Positions 26,837 to 36,492 of a DNA stretch of 64,000 bases are shown here, in pieces. The notes below the pieces were generated by a model that was not told where the DNA came from, did not search any database, and saw only the letters and a program-made list of their open reading frames with translations. Position 1 is the first letter of the stretch. Each line of letters starts with the position of its first letter. Both the position numbers and the translations under genes were made by a program. The DNA is from Sphingomonas sp. (lineage in GTDB: Bacteria; Pseudomonadota; Alphaproteobacteria; Sphingomonadales; Sphingomonadaceae). The stretch is from contig NZ_JAQZBC010000006.1 in assembly GCF_029239295.1 (NCBI RefSeq), positions 1 to 64,000 of the forward strand, read 5' to 3'.

Positions 26837-28183
26837 TCAAGCAACCTTCGCGCTGAAGTCGTCCGCCGCACTGCGGAGCGAAGCCAATCGATCGTCAATG
26901 GCGGCGAACTCTGTCCCCAGCGTGTCAACATCACGCGCTAGGCCGGCGCCTTCGCGCATTATCGCCGTCATGTTGCCCGCCGTGGCATCCGCCGCCAATG
27001 CAGTCTGATCGACCGCGGCCGTGATCGCGGTTACGGTTTGCGCCTGCGCCTCCATCGCGCGCCTGATCCTGGTGGCGGACGTTTTCACATCATCGATCGT
27101 TGCCCGCACATTGGCGCTCGATTCCACCGTCACCTGAGTGGCCGCCTGAATCGCGCCGATCTGAGCAGCAATGTCATCGGTGGCGCGGGCTGTTTGGCTG
27201 GCCAGGCTTTTCACTTCCTGCGCCACCACCGCGAAGCCGCGTCCGGCATCCCCTGCACGCGCTGCCTCGATCGTGGCGTTTAGCGCGAGCAGATTCGTCT
27301 GCCCCGCGATCGTGCGGATCAACGCCAGGATGGACTCGATCGACTTGGCGTGAGCGCTGAGCGCCTCGCTGACAGTAACGGCGCGGTCTGCTTGAGTGGC
27401 AGCCTGCGTCGCAATCTCCGCCGCCGCTTCCACTTCAGTACGGGCGTCCTCGATGGCGAGGATCAATCCCGCTGCGGTTGATGCTGCATCGCGCATGGCC
27501 AGCGCCGATTCTTCGGCCGCTGCAGCCACCTCCGCGCTTCGTCCGACCATGGAGCCGGCAGCCTGGGTGGCGCTCGATGCCTGCGCGCGCACCCGCTCGC
27601 CCAACACCGCTGCGCCCTCGATCTCGTCAGCGATGTGCAGCCTGAACGCTGCGGCGTGCGCGGCGCGCTCCTCCGCGACCTGCGCACGCTCGCTGCGGCC
27701 GAGATGTGCCGCCATCACGTCCGCCTCGATCAGCGCAAGCCGCTGGACCACATCGGAGAGGCGCCGCATCCGGCCCACGTCGCTGCCCACCCTTGCTTCA
27801 AGGATTGCAAGCGTACGGGCATGCGCAAAGGCGAGCGCCGACATCAGCGCCGCCAGCGGTACGCCTGTCTCGCGAGTCATCTCGGCATGCTTGGTGGCGG
27901 CGCGCGCCCATTGGTCCTCGAATGGCGCGGAATACTTCATGCGCATGTAGCGCGCGCTTCGAGCAAGCTGTCGCTTGAGCCACGCGTCCTCGACACCTTC
28001 CAGGACTTCCTGGGTTGCCGGAAGACTGCGATAATGGGTCCAGAACGCCTCAGAGATCGCCTCGCAATCCGCGGCCGTCAAAAGCGCATCGATATCCGCC
28101 GCGGCCGACGCAATGACGCCATCCCAGTCATATTCGCGCACCTGCGCCCCAATAGAACGTGCCAGACTGTCCCAGATGGGCAT
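26837..28183 (-). CDS. Soluble methyl-accepting chemotaxis-type receptor with helical sensor domain
   Basis: A 448-residue chemoreceptor-like protein with no membrane helix or HAMP domain. Residues 1-170 are an all-helical sensor resembling globin-coupled sensors; a His in [15 protein letters not shown] is a possible haem ligand, though its spacing to GVP is one helix turn longer than in HemAT. The C-terminal half is a coiled-coil signalling domain with hairpin tip [17 protein letters not shown]. The start is ATG 28183. A paralogue lies immediately upstream. No che genes are nearby. Confidence 0.85.
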
Positions 28184-28256
28184 CGTGGCTTTCCTCCCCC
28201 TGTCTCTTTTCACGTCACCATGCCGCCGATCAGGACCTGTTGCACCCACTCGGTTG

Positions 28257-29648
28257 TCAGGCGGCCACCCTTTCGGCGAAGTCGCCGGCGCTTCGATTGA
28301 GCAGCGCCAACCGCCCGGCGAGCCGGTCAAAGCCCGCGCCGAGTGCATCGATCTCACCCGCGACAGCCTCTGTATCGGTGTGGATCGAAGCGATCGTATT
28401 GGACATCGAATCCGCCGCCAGCGCGGTCTCGTCGACCGCTGCGGTGATGGCGGTAACCGTCTGCGCCTGCGCCTCCATCGCGTCCCGAATACGAGTCGCC
28501 GATACCTGCACTTCGTCTACCGTCGCCCGAATGCCGACGTTGGCGTTAACCGTCACCTGGGTTGCGGTCTGAATGGCGGTGATCTTCGCGGCGATATCGT
28601 CCGTTGCGCGCGCCGTTTGACTCGCCAGACTTTTCACCTCCTGCGCTACGACCGCAAAGCCGCGCCCAGCATCGCCTGCGCGTGCCGCCTCGATCGTGGC
28701 ATTCAGCGCCAGCAGATTGGTCTGCCCGGCAATGTCGCGGATCAGGCCGAGGATCGACTCGATCGATTTGGCATGCTCATTGAGCATCTCGGTCACACCG
28801 ACCGCCTGATCCGCCTGGACCGCAGCGCGCGTGGCGATGTCAGCGGCAGCCTCGACCTCACTTCGTGCATCGCCGATGGCGCGGATCAGCCCCGCTGCGG
28901 TCGAGGCTGCGTCCCGCATCGCGAGGGCAGACTGTTCCGCCGCCGCCGCGACCTCGCTCGCCTTGCCCAGAACACCCCGCGCGGAGAACGACGCGGTTGA
29001 CGCCTGATCGCGCAGCGTCGCGCCCTCGCTGGTCGCGTCCTCAACGGTAGTCGCGATACCGCCACGAAAGTCTGCCGCCAGCCGGTCGCGAGCACTCTGC
29101 GAACTATGCTTCCGATAGTCACCGTAGAGCGCCACGGTGATCTCGCCTTCGAGCGCAGATAGCCGCATCAACGTATCGATCATGGTCGGCAGGCGCGAGT
29201 CAGACGGCTCGCAGCGAGACATCAGGACGTGCAGCGCTGCGCGATCGCTGGCGCTGATCATCGACAGCAGCGCGAGTGGCGACACCTGCGCCTGATATGC
29301 GGCAGCCACCGACCGTTCGATCGATTCGACCCACGCGCGACGATCGGTGCGGAGGAAACGCTCGCGCAGAAACGCGCAGCCGACGTCGATCATCCGGGCG
29401 CTGTCGTGGTCCACCCAGGCCTTGTCGTTATGAAAGCAGCGCTGCCAATGCTTCCAATAAGCCTCGGAAATCTGCCGCACCTCTGGCTCCAGCACCTCCC
29501 ACACCTCTCGCGACGTGGTCGATAGTGTTCCGTCAAAGTCAAAAACCCGCAGCCGAGTATCGAGGTCGATCACGCGGGCCAGTTGGGCCGGAGGTGGCAG
29601 GTCGACGGACAAGTTGTTGCGCTCCCGGTTCATTACCTTCCGGGACAT
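28257..29648 (-). CDS. Second soluble methyl-accepting chemotaxis-type receptor
   Basis: A 463-residue paralogue of the downstream receptor. The signalling domains are nearly identical over the hairpin tip and adaptor-binding region. The helical sensor domain is much more diverged, and the segment aligning with the other copy's possible haem-ligand His reads [12 protein letters not shown] with Ser in its place. No membrane helices are seen. An in-frame ATG at 29633 is an alternative start. The pair probably arose by duplication and transcribes leftward; it is divergent from sdhC. Confidence 0.83.
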
Positions 29649-30219: not shown

Positions 30220-30599
30220 TGGGAACGGGAACCTCGATCGGCCGCGTTCGTGGCCTGGGTAGCGCGCACGAAGGCCCGCATCACTGGTGGCACCAGAAGA
30301 TCACGGCAGGATCCAATATCCTACTGATGAGCTGGCTGGTGATCTCGCTCGCCCGCCGTCCGGGATATGATTACGGCACGATGCGCGATTGGCTGTCGTC
30401 GGCCTGGGTCGCGATCCCGATGATCCTCCTGGTCGTGTCCGTCTTCTACCACTTCCGTCTCGGGCTTCAGGTCGTGATCGAGGACTATCAGCGTGACGAA
30501 CGTCGTGTCGTCGCGATGGTCCTGCTCAACCTGTTCACCGCTGCCGTGACCGGCACCGCCCTCTTCGCGATCCTGAAGATCGCCTTCGGAGCAAATTGA
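30219..30599 (+). CDS. sdhD: Succinate dehydrogenase hydrophobic membrane anchor subunit
   Basis: A 126-residue second membrane anchor of complex II with three helices. [11 protein letters not shown] precedes helix 1, and [15 protein letters not shown] carries the haem/quinone-site residues including the Asp-Tyr pair. TAATG and TGATG overlaps connect it to sdhC and sdhA, so the three genes are translationally coupled. Confidence 0.92.
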
Positions 30600-32401
30600 T
30601 GCCCGCCGCTTACCAGATCATCGACCATACGTACGACGCGGTCGTCGTCGGCGCCGGCGGCTCGGGCCTCCGCGCCACGATGGGCATCGCGGAGGCGGGG
30701 CTGAAGACCGCCTGCATCACCAAGGTGTTCCCGACCCGCAGCCACACCGTGGCGGCGCAGGGCGGCATCGCGGCTAGCCTGGGCAACAATTCGCCGGACC
30801 ACTGGTCCTGGCACATGTACGATACCGTCAAGGGTTCCGACTGGCTCGGTGACCAGGACGCGATCGAGTACATGGTGCGCGAGGCGCCGGCCGCGGTGTA
30901 CGAGCTGGAGCACGCGGGCGTGCCGTTCAGCCGCAACGAGGACGGGACGATCTACCAGCGCCCGTTCGGCGGCCACATGCAGAACATGGGTGAAGGCCCG
31001 CCGGTGCAGCGCACCTGCGCCGCCGCGGACCGTACCGGCCACGCCATGCTCCACGCGCTGTATCAGCAGTCGCTGAAGTATGACGCGGACTTCTACATCG
31101 AATATTTCGCGCTCGATCTCATCATGGAGAACGGTGCGTGCCACGGCGTAATCGCGCTCAACATGGAAACGGGGCAGATCCATCGCTTCCGTGCCCATGC
31201 AGTGGTGCTGGCGACGGGCGGCGGTGGCCGCGTGTACCAGTCGGCAACCTCGGCACACACCTGCACCGGTGACGGCAACGGCATGGCGCTGCGCGCTGGC
31301 CTGCCGCTGCAGGACATGGAGTTCGTGCAGTTCCACCCAACCGGCATCTACGGCGCGGGCGTCCTCATAACCGAGGGTGCGCGCGGCGAAGGCGGCTACC
31401 TTACCAATTCCGAGGGCGAGCGCTTCATGGAGCGTTACGCGCCGAGCGCGAAGGACCTCGCCTCGCGTGACGTCGTGTCGCGTTCGATGGCGGCGGAAAT
31501 GCGCGAGGGCCGCGGCGTCGGCAAGGACAAGGACCACATCTTCCTTCACCTCGATCATATCGATCCGAAGGTGCTGGCGGAGCGCCTGCCGGGCATCACC
31601 GAGACGGGCAAGATCTTTGCCGGCGTTGACCTCACTCGTCAGCCGCTGCCCGTCACGCCGACTGTCCACTACAACATGGGCGGCATCCCGACGAACTATC
31701 ATGGCGAAGTCGTTCAGCTGAAGAACGGTGATCCGGACGCGATCGTCCCGGGCCTGTTCGCGGTTGGCGAGGCAGCCTGCGTGTCGGTCCATGGCGCGAA
31801 CCGCCTCGGCTCCAACTCGCTGATCGATCTCGTGGTGTTCGGCCGTGCGACGGGCCTACGCCTCAAGGAAACGCTGAAGCCGAACACGCCGCACAATCCG
31901 CTGCCCAAGGGCTCGGAAGAGATGGCGCTCGGCCGGCTCGACCACTTCCGCAACGCAAGCGGCGGCTCGCCCACGGCGAAGATCCGCGCCGAGATGCAGA
32001 AGACGATGCAGCGCCACGCCGCTGTGTTCCGCGACAGCGAGCTGCTGTCCGAGGGCGTGACCAAGATCGACGCGATCTACAAGTCGATGGAAGACGTCGG
32101 CATCAAGGATCGCTCGCTGATCTGGAACACCGACCTCGTCGAGACGCTGGAGCTGGACAACCTCATCAGCCAGGCGGTCGTGACGATGCGCGGCGCGGAA
32201 AACCGCAAGGAAAGCCGCGGCGCGCACATGCACGAGGATTATCCGGAGCGCGACGACGTGAACTGGATGAAGCACACGATCGCGACGTTCGATGGCTGGG
32301 GCGGCAAGGGCGGCAGCTGCTCGCTCGATTATCGTCCGGTGCACGATTACACGCTCACCGACGACGCCGAGTACATCAAGCCGAAGAAGCGGGTGTACTG
32401 A
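30599..32401 (+). CDS. sdhA: Succinate dehydrogenase flavoprotein subunit
   Basis: A 600-residue FAD subunit that oxidises succinate to fumarate. It has the dinucleotide-binding [12 protein letters not shown], covalent FAD attachment at His49 ([11 protein letters not shown]), and active-site segments [21 protein letters not shown] (by landmark) and [13 protein letters not shown]. The start ATG overlaps the sdhD stop. A strong terminator follows, separating it from sdhB 3.3 kb downstream. Confidence 0.97.
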
Positions 32402-32408
32402 TCCGGGT

Positions 32409-32438
32409 GGCGCGGCCGGATGGCCGCGCCCCTCTTTT
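32409..32438 (+). terminator. Strong intrinsic terminator after sdhA
   Basis: A perfect 9-bp GC stem (GGCGCGGCC and its complement) with a GGAT loop, followed by CCTCTTTT. It is placed 8 bases after the sdhA stop codon. Confidence 0.85.
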
Positions 32439-32595
32439 CTCAGTTGTTGATAACCGTGACGGTACCAAACCGTCCCGCAGCAACTTCAGCTTAAGCTACC
32501 CCCGCCCGCAACATCTCGAATGTCGCGCGACTTCAAACTATTGACTTCGATCGCCGATCGCCCCGACACTCTTCCGATTGTGGAGGGGGCTCGCG

Positions 32596-33570
32596 ATGAA
32601 GAGGTGGCTTACCGTCTTTCTTGCCGCATGCGCGGGCTCCGCGTTGGCTCAGAGCTACATTCCACCTCAGCATAGCCGAACGGCGCCGTTGATCGCCCGC
32701 AGTGGCGAGGCCGAACTGGTCCAGCTTGCGGATCAGGGCGGTGCGATCGAATATGATCGCAAGGCTGGCTGGCGACTGGCTGAACATCGCCGCCTCTCCT
32801 CGATGCTCGCCGCCATCCAGCCGCAAAGAAAGGGTGTGACCGACGCCTTCGTCATCAGCGTCGCGCTGGACAGCGATCCGGTGTTCGGTCGCGAGGCGCG
32901 TGAGGCGGCTAAGGTCCTTTCGAGACGCTACGGTGCTGTGGGGCGCACGATCGTTCTCGCCGGTACGGACGGCAAGGCCGACAGCGCGCTGCCGATGGGC
33001 TCCCCTTCCAATCTGGATGTCGCACTGGCTCGGATCGCGGAACTCATGGATGTGAACGAGGACGTGCTTATCCTCTACACCACCAGCCACGGCGCGCGCT
33101 TCGGCATTGTGTACAATGACGGGGATCAGGGGTTCGGCGCCATCTCCCCCGCCAGGCTGTGGCAAACGCTTTCCCAGCTGGGCATTCGCAACCGATTGAT
33201 CATGATCTCAGCCTGTTACGCGGGAGTCTTCGTTCCGCTGCTGTCGAGCGACACCACTGCGATCATCACGGCTGCGTCGTCTGACCGAAGCTCATTCGGT
33301 TGCGTGGCCGATAATGACTGGACCTTCTTCGGCGATGCGTTGGTCAATCGCGCACTTCGCCAGCCAAAGCCGCTTGCTGCTGCGGCGGCAGAAGCGACAA
33401 GGACGATTGCGGGGTGGGAACAGGAAGGTCGGCTGGAGCCATCGCAGCCACAGGTCGCGATCGGTCCCGGGGCGGCGCGTTGGCTTGCCGTGCTCGATGC
33501 CCGTGCCCCGCGCGATGTCATGCCGCCGGTCGGCCGACCCGCCAACTCTGTGCTTCTCGCACAACATTAG
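32596..33570 (+). CDS. Secreted C13 (legumain-like) cysteine peptidase
   Basis: A 324-residue protein with a signal peptide (cleavage near ALAQS). The caspase-fold catalytic pair of family C13 is visible: His165 in TTSHGAR and Cys207 in SACYAG, each after a hydrophobic strand (EDVLILYTT, NRLIMI). It therefore probably works as an asparaginyl-type or GPI-transamidase-like endopeptidase in the periplasm; bacterial members are uncharacterised. The ATG at 32596 follows GGAGGGGG. It is the first of three non-sdh genes between sdhA and sdhB. Confidence 0.85.
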   Translation: MKRWLTVFLAACAGSALAQSYIPPQHSRTAPLIARSGEAELVQLADQGGAIEYDRKAGWRLAEHRRLSSMLAAIQPQRKGVTDAFVISVALDSDPVFGREAREAAKVLSRRYGAVGRTIVLAGTDGKADSALPMGSPSNLDVALARIAELMDVNEDVLILYTTSHGARFGIVYNDGDQGFGAISPARLWQTLSQLGIRNRLIMISACYAGVFVPLLSSDTTAIITAASSDRSSFGCVADNDWTFFGDALVNRALRQPKPLAAAAAEATRTIAGWEQEGRLEPSQPQVAIGPGAARWLAVLDARAPRDVMPPVGRPANSVLLAQH

Positions 33571-33657
33571 GAGCCGGACGCCACCTCCGTCACGGCGGCG
33601 ATCGAGATTTTTCTATATTGCCGGAACCCTCACAGGTCGTTCGCGGTTCGCGTCGCT

Positions 33658-34230
33658 ATGAATTCCAGCAACAATGCCAACAACTATCCGCTTCTCGCGA
33701 GTCCGCATGTGCAGCTCTACGGCACAGTTGACGATGCGATGTACGCAAGCTTCAAGGATCAGGTCGCCGCAGCGCCTGCTGAGGGCCCGTTGATCTTCTC
33801 CATCACTACGCTGGGTGGCGACCCGGAAATGGCTCGGGCGATGGGCGATACCGTGCGCCTGCTGCGCGAATACACTGGTCGCGAGACGCTGTTTCTGGGG
33901 AAGGTCGCGGTGTACTCGGCGGGCGCGACGTTCATGTCGGCCTTCCCCGTCGACAAGCGCTTCCTGACCCGCGGCTCTCGGCTGATGATCCACGAGCGGC
34001 TGATGAACTCCACCATCCAATTGTCCGGGCCGCTCAACACACTGGCGCCCGTTCTGCTCGCGAAGCTCAACGAGATTCAGGATTCAATCCGGATCCAGGA
34101 TGAAGGTTTCGCCGCGTTGGTAGAGGGCTCGCGCGTAACGCTCGAAGAACTCAAGGCGAAAGCACCATCGAACTGGTATGTGGAGGCGGAGGAGGCCCGC
34201 GAACTGGGTCTGGTGTTGGACTTGATCTGA
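33658..34230 (+). CDS. ClpP-like serine protease (S14/crotonase fold), stand-alone
   Basis: A 190-residue ClpP-fold protein. The nucleophile is Ser87 in AVYSAGATF, the base His112 in LMIHE, and ISITTLGG-like strand-turn FSITTLGGDPEMA forms the oxyanion side. The nucleophile environment differs from true ClpP (ASMG), and no ClpX/ClpA partner is adjacent. No signal peptide is seen. The start is ATG 33658 with a poor ribosome site. Function is unknown; it may cleave or bind peptides. Confidence 0.78.
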   Translation: MNSSNNANNYPLLASPHVQLYGTVDDAMYASFKDQVAAAPAEGPLIFSITTLGGDPEMARAMGDTVRLLREYTGRETLFLGKVAVYSAGATFMSAFPVDKRFLTRGSRLMIHERLMNSTIQLSGPLNTLAPVLLAKLNEIQDSIRIQDEGFAALVEGSRVTLEELKAKAPSNWYVEAEEARELGLVLDLI

Positions 34231-34315
34231 CACCCGGTGCCGTAAGCGGCTGCGGTCGTGCCTTGCCACTTACTCGTCGCGCTTGGATAAGGGGTCAGCA
34301 ATCGAGCGAGGCGGA

Positions 34316-35695
34316 ATGACCAAGGCCCCTACCCCCGGGCGTAAGCTTGGGATGGCAATTCTGATCGCCATGTTGTTGGCGATCCCGCTCTTCGCCGTTT
34401 ATCTGTTGGTCTATGATCGTCAGGATCAATCAAGCAGCGCCCGCGCATCGATTGCCAGCGGCTGGGGCGGGCCGCAAACGATCGCCGGGCCGGTACTGGT
34501 CATACCCTATCAAACGGAAGCGACCGAAACCGTCACAGAAGCAGGCCGGCAGGTCTCGCGAACCACACGGGTTTGGCGCGAACTGACGCTGTCGCCGCAG
34601 ATCGCTGATCTGCATACCAAATTGACCCCCGAACGCCGCCGCCGGTCTATCTACGAGGCGGTCCTGTTCGAGGCGGCCGCCGATGGCTCGGCACGCTTCG
34701 ATCTCCCCGCCGATCTTGCTCGGTTCGGCATCACCGCTGATGAACTCGCCTACGACAGGGCAGAGCTTCGGTTCGGCTTGCGGGATCCGCGCGGGCTTTT
34801 TGGTCAACCGCCTGTCGTGCTGGCGGACGGAAAGCGCCTCGGCCTTCAGCCCGGCAAGGGGTCGCCAGCGACCAACAATGCCGGCTTCTTCACCTGGCTT
34901 GATGCCGCGTCCATCCGCACCCGCCCCCTACTGGTGCGGTTCGCATACTCCTTCCGCGGAAATGGCTGGCTCGCGCTGGCGCCACAGGCAGGCGATACGC
35001 GGTGGCGGGTTACTTCCACCTGGCCGCACCCAAGCTTTCAGGGCGGGTTCCTGCCAACGGCGCAGACGGTCAACAAGGACGGATTCGTCGCCACTTGGCG
35101 CATCGGGAACCTGGCGCTGGGCAGAAGCCTGGTCTCGTCCGGAGACGTGGTTCCCGAGTCGCGTCCTGAGGTCATCGATCGTGCGATGGTCGCCACACCG
35201 GCTGATGGATATGAAGCACGCGCCGTGCTGATCTCGCCGGTAGACCTCTACAGTCAGGTCAATCGATCGGTGAAATACGGTTTCCTCTTCATCGGCTTCA
35301 CGTTCCTCGCCTTTCTGCTTTTCGATGTTATCGGCGGGGTGCGGGTTTCGTCGGTCGAGTACCTGCTTGTCGGCGCCGGGCTGGTGCTCTTCTTCGCCCT
35401 CCTACTCGCCTTCGCGGAGGTGGTCGGGTTCACCCCTGCCTACCTAATCGCCGCTGGCGCGATCATCACGCTACTCACCAGCTATTCCGCCGCGGTTCTG
35501 CACAGCTGGCGCCGCGCGGGGTACATTGCCGCCCTGCTCGCCGCGCTGTACGCGATTTTGTACGTGCTACTGAACCTGGAAGCCTATTCGCTGCTCATCG
35601 GATCGCTGCTTCTGTTTGCGGCGCTGGCCGGTGTTATGTATCTGACGCGTAACCTCGACTGGAGCGGTTTTCGCACCCAGTCCTCAACCGACTGA
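34316..35695 (+). CDS. creD: CreD-like inner membrane protein
   Basis: A 459-residue protein of the CreD family. It has an N-terminal helix ([21 protein letters not shown]), a large periplasmic domain beginning with [15 protein letters not shown], and four to five helices after about residue 320 ([22 protein letters not shown] by landmark). In E. coli CreD is linked to envelope integrity under the CreBC system; no creBC is here. The ATG at 34316 follows AGGCGGA. It ends 14 bases before sdhB. Confidence 0.9.
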
Positions 35696-35709
35696 AGCGG
35701 GAACGGAAA

Positions 35710-36492
35710 ATGGCCGAATTCACCCTGCCGGCGAACAGCAAGATCAAGGGCGGTCGCAAGATCCCCTCGCCCGAACCGGGCGGGACGATGCGCAACTTCA
35801 AGGTCTATCGCTACGATCCGGACAACGGCGAGAACCCGCGCTACGACACGTTCGAGGTAAACCTCGACGAGTGCGGCCCAATGGTTCTTGACGCGCTGAT
35901 CAAGATCAAGAGCGAGCAGGATTCGTCGCTGACGTTCCGCCGTTCGTGCCGTGAGGGCATCTGCGGTTCCTGCTCGATGAACATCGACGGCAAGAACGGG
36001 CTCGCCTGCACCACCGCGATCGAGGACGTGAAGGGCGAGGTGAAGATCACGCCGCTGCCGGCGATGGACGTGATCAAGGATCTCGTGCCCGACTTCACGC
36101 ACTTCTACGCGCAATACGCTTCGATCCAGCCCTGGCTGAAGACCGTGACTCCCCCGCCCGCCGGCAAGGAACGCCTGCAGTCGCCGGAAGACCGCGCCAA
36201 GCTCGATGGCCTGTACGAGTGCATCCTGTGCGCCTGCTGCTCCACGTCGTGCCCCAGCTACTGGTGGAATTCTGACAAGTTCCTCGGCCCGGCAATTCTG
36301 CTCCAGGCGTATCGCTGGCTGGCCGACAGCCGCGATGAGATGACCGGCGAGCGGCTCGACAGCCTGGAGGATCCGTTCCGCCTGTATCGCTGCCACACGA
36401 TCATGAACTGCGCCAACACCTGCCCCAAGGGGCTGAACCCGGCGAAGGCCATCGCCGAGATCAAGAAGATGGAAGTCGAGCGCGTCCTCTGA
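35710..36492 (+). CDS. sdhB: Succinate dehydrogenase iron-sulfur subunit
   Basis: A 260-residue subunit that passes electrons from FAD to quinone. The [2Fe-2S] cysteines are 80, 85, 88 and 100. The [4Fe-4S] and [3Fe-4S] clusters are bound by [12 protein letters not shown] and [17 protein letters not shown]. It is separated from sdhCDA by a terminator and three genes, and sits right behind creD, so it must be transcribed separately or with creD. A palindromic repeat follows. Confidence 0.96.

Follow-up and report, generated by a model that had tools for sequence, protein, structure and literature searches.

Two protease genes, one for a C13 (legumain-fold) cysteine peptidase and one for a ClpP-like protein (ClpPL), lie next to each other among the succinate dehydrogenase genes of a Sphingomonas genome, raising the question of whether the two enzymes form one proteolytic system, serve the dehydrogenase, or simply share a place in the genome. 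The locus was studied in a stretch of 64,000 nt (the window) from a genome that has Sphingomonas as its closest named relatives.

The gene order on the + strand is sdhC, sdhD, sdhA, C13, ClpPL, creD, sdhB, followed by genes for a 4HBT thioesterase and an AFG1/ZapE-type ATPase, and then mdh, sucD and sucA. (sdhA, sdhB, mdh, sucD and sucA were named by eye; sdhC, sdhD and creD were named by profile search.) A previous sequence-only reading of this DNA had called the setting a respiratory locus, which is a fair label for the run from sdhC to sdhB. Both protease ORFs were found where that reading had placed them on the + strand, the C13 gene at 32596–33570 (324 aa) and the ClpPL gene at 33658–34230 (190 aa), and each was characterized by profile, alignment and predicted model. 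The pair is preceded by sdhA, encoding the succinate dehydrogenase flavoprotein (30596–32401, + strand), and followed by creD (34316–35695, + strand), a neighbour outside the pair, and by sdhB, encoding the iron-sulphur subunit (35710–36492, + strand). An intrinsic terminator with 9 G-C pairs and a T-rich tail (32409–32440, + strand; −25.8 kcal/mol, z −2.73) lies 3' of sdhA. Since this strong terminator directly follows sdhA, sdhCDA and sdhB are probably separate transcripts in this genome. Elsewhere in the window, on the − strand, positions 26837–29648 hold two overlapping tandem ORFs whose chemoreceptor-type signalling domains are, by eye, almost the same; the two ORFs have the look of a recent duplication.

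Purifying selection acts on both protease genes. In comparisons with one set of four relatives, dN/dS was 0.10–0.13 for ClpPL and 0.11–0.15 for C13, with dS at 0.9–1.5, near saturation; against three relatives it was 0.01–0.06 for sdhB and 0.10–0.14 for creD. These values, and the wide occurrence of ClpPL in the genus, indicate that the two ORFs are not chance reading frames.

The C13 peptidase

The C13 protein matched the family profile PF01650 with 58 bits (cut-off 22.8), and this was the only family matched at E ≤ 0.01 by the 21 aligned C13 sequences, all of which, including that of the window, matched it. NCBIfam gave only matches below cut-off, among them a caspase model that scored 19.5 bits where the cut-off is 140. 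Used alone, the sequence had no match among PDB sequences at E ≤ 1, and a C13 profile gave weak legumain matches there (best E 0.019). The predicted model (pLDDT 85.6) was closest to legumains and asparaginyl ligases, with Z about 20 and 2.9 Å over 220 residues, followed by GPI8 and plant metacaspases (Z about 18); identity to the legumain-type structural matches was 11–18%. The protein thus shares the caspase fold with metacaspases and caspase-like peptidases, but differs from them in its family, since all 21 sequences match PF01650 alone.

The catalytic His165 (codon 33088–33090) and Cys207 (codon 33214–33216), which the sequence-only reading had listed as kept, were present in 21 of the 21 aligned C13 sequences. 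In predicted fold, His/Cys dyad and PF01650 membership, the protein resembles legumain and GPI8. It differs from them in its low identity, its probable periplasmic location and two further respects. First, the residue two before the catalytic Cys is Ser, where legumain has Glu, so legumain specificity is not transferable to it. Second, a C-terminal prodomain of the legumain type would not fit into its 324 aa. A GRPA-like C-terminal tail (33523–33567), in which Gly313 is invariant, follows the folded domain and is kept in the C13 relatives; an inhibitory or a docking function is possible for this tail.

Export of the C13 protein, also suggested by the sequence-only reading, fits its N-terminus, which by eye has a basic start, a hydrophobic stretch and an ALA|Q site, giving a putative signal peptide (32596–32649) with cleavage after ALA. 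Most likely, this is a periplasmic single-domain legumain-fold cysteine endopeptidase, a view that adds a presumed activity, location and specificity to the predicted fold and the conserved residues. Once exported, it would cut exported proteins by means of the Cys207/His165 dyad. As a compact bacterial legumain-fold protease, it would offer a handle on the role of such enzymes in the envelope.

Fold and active site of ClpPL

No signal peptide was seen in ClpPL, consistent with the previous suggestion that this protein is apparently not exported. Its sequence matched PF00574 with 34.8 bits (cut-off 20.2), and 25 of 28 aligned ClpPL sequences, including that of the window, matched this family at E ≤ 0.01; against the NCBIfam ClpP models, ClpPL scored far below the cut-offs. 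The predicted model had a pLDDT of 93.9. Its top VIA-align match was chain A of 4ryf, the Listeria ClpP1/2 complex (Z 20.5, 2.0 Å, 161 residues aligned), with ordinary ClpPs tied to it within one Z unit, and Foldseek placed ordinary ClpPs on top, with 9ndj at rank 33 and 4ryf at rank 45. A ClpPL profile searched against solved structures had the Pseudomonas aeruginosa ClpP2 and Listeria ClpP1 chains at the top; the ClpPL of the window as a lone query had H. pylori ClpP as its top match.

The nucleophile Ser87 (codon 33916–33918) and His112 (codon 33991–33993), both noted before as kept, were found in 29 of 29 ClpPL sequences. The third residue of the triad, overlooked in the sequence-only reading, is Asn172 (codon 34171–34173), which occupies the place of the catalytic Asp of ClpP and is likewise Asn in 29 of 29 sequences. 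The lack of a Ser-His-Asp triad speaks against an ordinary ClpP, but not against membership of the S14 family. The YSAG motif around Ser87 is present as described, but the SAG in it is no peculiarity of this protein, being usual in minor ClpP paralogues such as Listeria ClpP1 and Pseudomonas ClpP2. SAG-type ClpPs are also present in other Alphaproteobacteria, and five of the eight SAG types compared have Asn at the triad. The sequence of 4jcq, which is also found in the Listeria complex, has N aligned at Asn172 of ClpPL, and the mutant 4jcr (ClpP1 N165D) has D there. (By eye, two residues seemed to be inserted before the nucleophile, but the alignment showed no such insertion.)

We considered the possibility that the Asn at the catalytic Asp place marks ClpPL as a pseudo-enzyme, in which the ClpP fold serves for binding. 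However, Ser and His are invariant and the blocks flanking them are strongly conserved. Moreover, a Listeria study (PMC9765437) describes a ClpP1 with Asn172 whose triad is aligned to the active form only in complex with ClpP2. A pseudo-enzyme is quite unlikely.

In a tree of 41 sequences, all 29 ClpPL sequences grouped together with a support of 100 on a branch of 2.84. When the tree was rooted on ordinary ClpP, of which it held four, ClpPL was nested among the SAG types (minor paralogues) with a support of 77–82; the PDB segments in this tree were partial. Kinship with the minor paralogues is suggested by the profile, the motifs and this tree together, and with a branch of 2.84 long-branch attraction is possible. 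Most likely, ClpPL is a cytosolic ClpP-type serine peptidase, akin to the minor paralogues, with a predicted Ser87-His112-Asn172 triad. Like Listeria ClpP1 and P. aeruginosa ClpP2, which belong to S14, it has the ClpP fold (Z 19–20), a SAG nucleophile and the position of second ClpP of the genome, and with Listeria ClpP1 it shares the Asn in place of Asp. Searches of open-access papers gave none on this C13 peptidase or on ClpPL, and, judged from these searches, ClpPL is previously undescribed. What would be new here is ClpPL as a variant of the already known minor ClpP paralogues.

Docking surface and assembly of ClpPL

Two proteins of the genome of the window, ClpPL and one ordinary ClpP, score above the PF00574 cut-off, and a further match falls below it. 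The ordinary, housekeeping ClpP (G000:C32:71216-71755) shares the family profile, Ser and His with ClpPL, but differs from it in having an Asp triad, an SMG nucleophile, a longer N-terminus and a hydrophobic docking pocket. We compared the pocket at eight places that we take, from E. coli ClpP, to line it. Three of the eight are changed in ClpPL. The place of Tyr62 holds small or acidic residues and is non-aromatic in 29 of 29 sequences; that of Met92 is Lys in all 29, and is already Thr or Ser in the eight SAG types; and that of Leu114 is Thr in 27 of 29. The other five are hydrophobic in most ClpPL sequences. The Lys and the Thr at two of these places also set ClpPL apart from the minor ClpPs, as does the HER motif of the ClpPL in the window (Glu in 27 of 29), where the minor ClpPs have HQP.

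The N-terminus differs as well. In ClpPL of the window the conserved core is preceded by 11 residues, compared to 23, 24 and 34 in three ordinary ClpPs. In 30 ClpPL sequences of the genus, the pre-core length from the nearest ATG ranged from 7 to 29 residues, with 25 at 18 or fewer and five at 21–29, close to the ordinary range. The N-terminal residues were unconserved in the alignment, the rows of which were taken from search matches and may lack N-terminal residues. Given three changed pocket places and an N-terminus that is both short and unconserved, ClpPL is probably not by itself a docking partner of a Clp ATPase. The five places that stay hydrophobic, the Thr or Ser at the Met92 place of the minor paralogues and the five longer N-termini tell against this view.

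A further difference from other ClpPs is in the distance between the catalytic His and the Asp or Asn, which is 60 residues in 29 of 29 ClpPL sequences and 49 in 12 of 12 other ClpPs, Listeria ClpP1 and P. aeruginosa ClpP2 included, a lengthening by 11 residues. ClpPL might work as an ATP-independent peptidase ring, or else as a ring of low activity that is activated by pairing with the housekeeping ClpP. We lean slightly towards the stand-alone ring, since the segment that is 11 residues longer than in the other ClpPs compared is the one that holds the ring-joining handle.

The alternative, in which ClpPL is a partner subunit that forms mixed-ring tetradecamers with the housekeeping ClpP and has its Ser-His-Asn triad aligned only in that complex, as in Listeria ClpP1, is a credible one, to which we would give somewhat less than an even chance. 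The profile neighbours of ClpPL are the minor subunits of known heterocomplexes, the triad Asn recurs in Listeria ClpP1, and the single ordinary ClpP above the cut-off in the same genome would provide a partner. There are also precedents in Listeria (PMC9765437) and in P. plecoglossicida, for which a study describes a ClpP1 without the N-terminal part that does not bind ClpX and a mixed complex that is more active (PMC12900304). However, the lengthened His-Asn segment, found in none of the 12 other ClpPs, makes pairing with an ordinary ClpP uncertain.

Our more specific proposal, that ClpPL represents a Sphingomonadaceae-centred class of ClpP rings with a rebuilt handle, a Ser-His-Asn triad and no ATPase docking, acting either free-standing or inside the housekeeping Clp protease as a regulatory inner ring, is put forward tentatively, as less likely than not. 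If docking has been lost and the ring-joining segment rebuilt, then ClpPL, which is kept in 175 of 201 Sphingomonas genomes, would help to show the use of a ClpP ring without an unfoldase. ClpPL is the more unusual of the two proteases, and the pair itself is ordinary.

Distribution of the two genes and the sdhA–sdhB interval

To follow the two genes through the genus, we used a sample of 201 Sphingomonas genomes that were at least 95% complete. ClpPL was present in 175 of these and C13 in 95 (97 before the exclusion of a paralogue-level match in G033 and a 38-residue fragment in G664). Both genes occurred in 80 genomes, ClpPL only in 95, C13 only in 15 and neither in 11. The sequence-only reading had proposed co-occurrence of the pair as a check, and by this measure the presence of one gene was independent of the other (Fisher p = 0.30, odds ratio 0.62). 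The picture was similar in a first sample of 37 genomes of the genus, which contained 16 with the genes adjacent, one with them apart, 14 with ClpPL only (counting G033), four with C13 only and two with neither, the last two being 84% and 79% complete.

Among 247 genomes of the order, ClpPL was found in 38 and C13 in 45, all within one family. Outside the genus, the same set had ClpPL in 21 genomes and C13 in 32, of which four had weaker C13 matches (E 1e-38 to 1e-50) that are perhaps paralogues, one of them in a ClpPL-bearing genome; both genes occurred in two genomes, on different contigs. Strong ClpPL matches outside the order were found in two (L143 and L144) of 289 genomes of the class, where the gene may have arrived through horizontal transfer. 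A further 18 had weak ClpPL matches (E 5e-11 to 9e-4), and those inspected were other ClpPs. ClpPL is a fast-diverged branch found mainly in Sphingomonadaceae. A defence role for either protease was considered and set aside, as neither had a PADLOC match at E ≤ 1.

Adjacency could be counted in the genomes for which both coordinates concerned were listed (n = 67, 115, 111 or 118, depending on the pair of genes). In 62 of 67 such genomes, C13 immediately preceded ClpPL in the same orientation, with 63–475 nt between the profile matches, and the two were apart in the other five, G673 and G713 among them. The sequence-only reading had held that homologues scattered without conserved adjacency would count against a link between the genes; adjacency is kept within the genus, and none was seen outside it. 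The same reading had proposed to look at the pair with or without creD. creD was at the locus of the pair in only five of 80 named loci, these being the best 80 of 393 and biased toward close relatives, and we rejected it as a member of a unit with the pair.

The regular adjacency, together with three genomes (G005, G674 and G687) in which C13 and ClpPL are together although sdhA or sdhB is elsewhere, would be expected if C13 on the outside and ClpPL on the inside formed one proteolytic system across the inner membrane. Against this stand the independent presence of the two genes, the 95 genomes with ClpPL alone and 15 with C13 alone, the five genomes with the two apart, the different contigs on which they lie in the two genomes outside the genus that have both, and the finding that either gene by itself also occurs between sdhA and sdhB. 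In 71 genomes, sdhA and sdhB were within 10 kb of each other on one strand. Both protease genes lay between them in 29 of these, ClpPL without C13 in 31 and C13 without ClpPL in four; five others had C13 and a ClpPL of unlisted coordinate, one had neither, and one had no C13 and a ClpPL of unlisted coordinate. That each gene, even alone, usually sits between sdhA and sdhB would suffice to account for the adjacency of C13 and ClpPL, and a joint system is very unlikely. Given how regular the adjacency is, shared regulation of the two genes is possible.

The attachment to the sdh genes raises another possibility, that one or both proteins are quality-control or maturation proteases of succinate dehydrogenase, tied to complex II. 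Among the listed genomes, 63 of 67 had C13 and 103 of 115 had ClpPL no more than 10 kb downstream of sdhA. Relative to sdhB, ClpPL lay at most 10 kb upstream in 86 of 111, and C13 did so in 46 of 55. C13 adjoined sdhA in six of seven inspected genomes of the genus with C13 only (G071 was the exception) and in five of eight inspected genomes of other genera. In 47 of 118 listed genomes, sdhA and sdhB were not within 10 kb on one strand, 26 having the two on separate contigs, which can be misleading in draft assemblies, and 21 on the same contig. In these 47 genomes, ClpPL was with sdhA in 22, with sdhB in 10 and with neither in one (coordinate unlisted in 14). ClpPL and the sdh genes are neighbours in most genomes of the genus, and a link with succinate dehydrogenase is possible. 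A rule by which C13 stays with sdhA and ClpPL with sdhB, suggested by G028 and G661, fails generally, and in G628 C13 is away from the sdh genes.

However, several observations argue against such a role. The terminator separates sdhA from C13; ClpPL is missing from 26 and C13 from 106 of the 201 genomes, while sdhA and sdhB each gave a strong match in 200; and in the inspected genomes of other genera ClpPL was either near sdhA on the opposite strand or elsewhere. Furthermore, unrelated genes share the interval, and synteny within one genus is the default. We consider a function tied to succinate dehydrogenase unlikely.

Instead, we think it likely that these are two independent proteases in one variable interval between sdhA and sdhB, C13 being probably a periplasmic endopeptidase and ClpPL a cytosolic ClpP-type peptidase that itself probably does not dock an ATPase. 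The pair is a caution that regular adjacency within a genus can arise from a shared landing interval. In Sphingomonas, the sdhA–sdhB interval is a variable landing place. By eye, this interval (32402–35709 in the window; also in L032, L036, L038, L083, L084 and L113) also holds a membrane protein, a dehydrogenase, a deacetylase and other genes.
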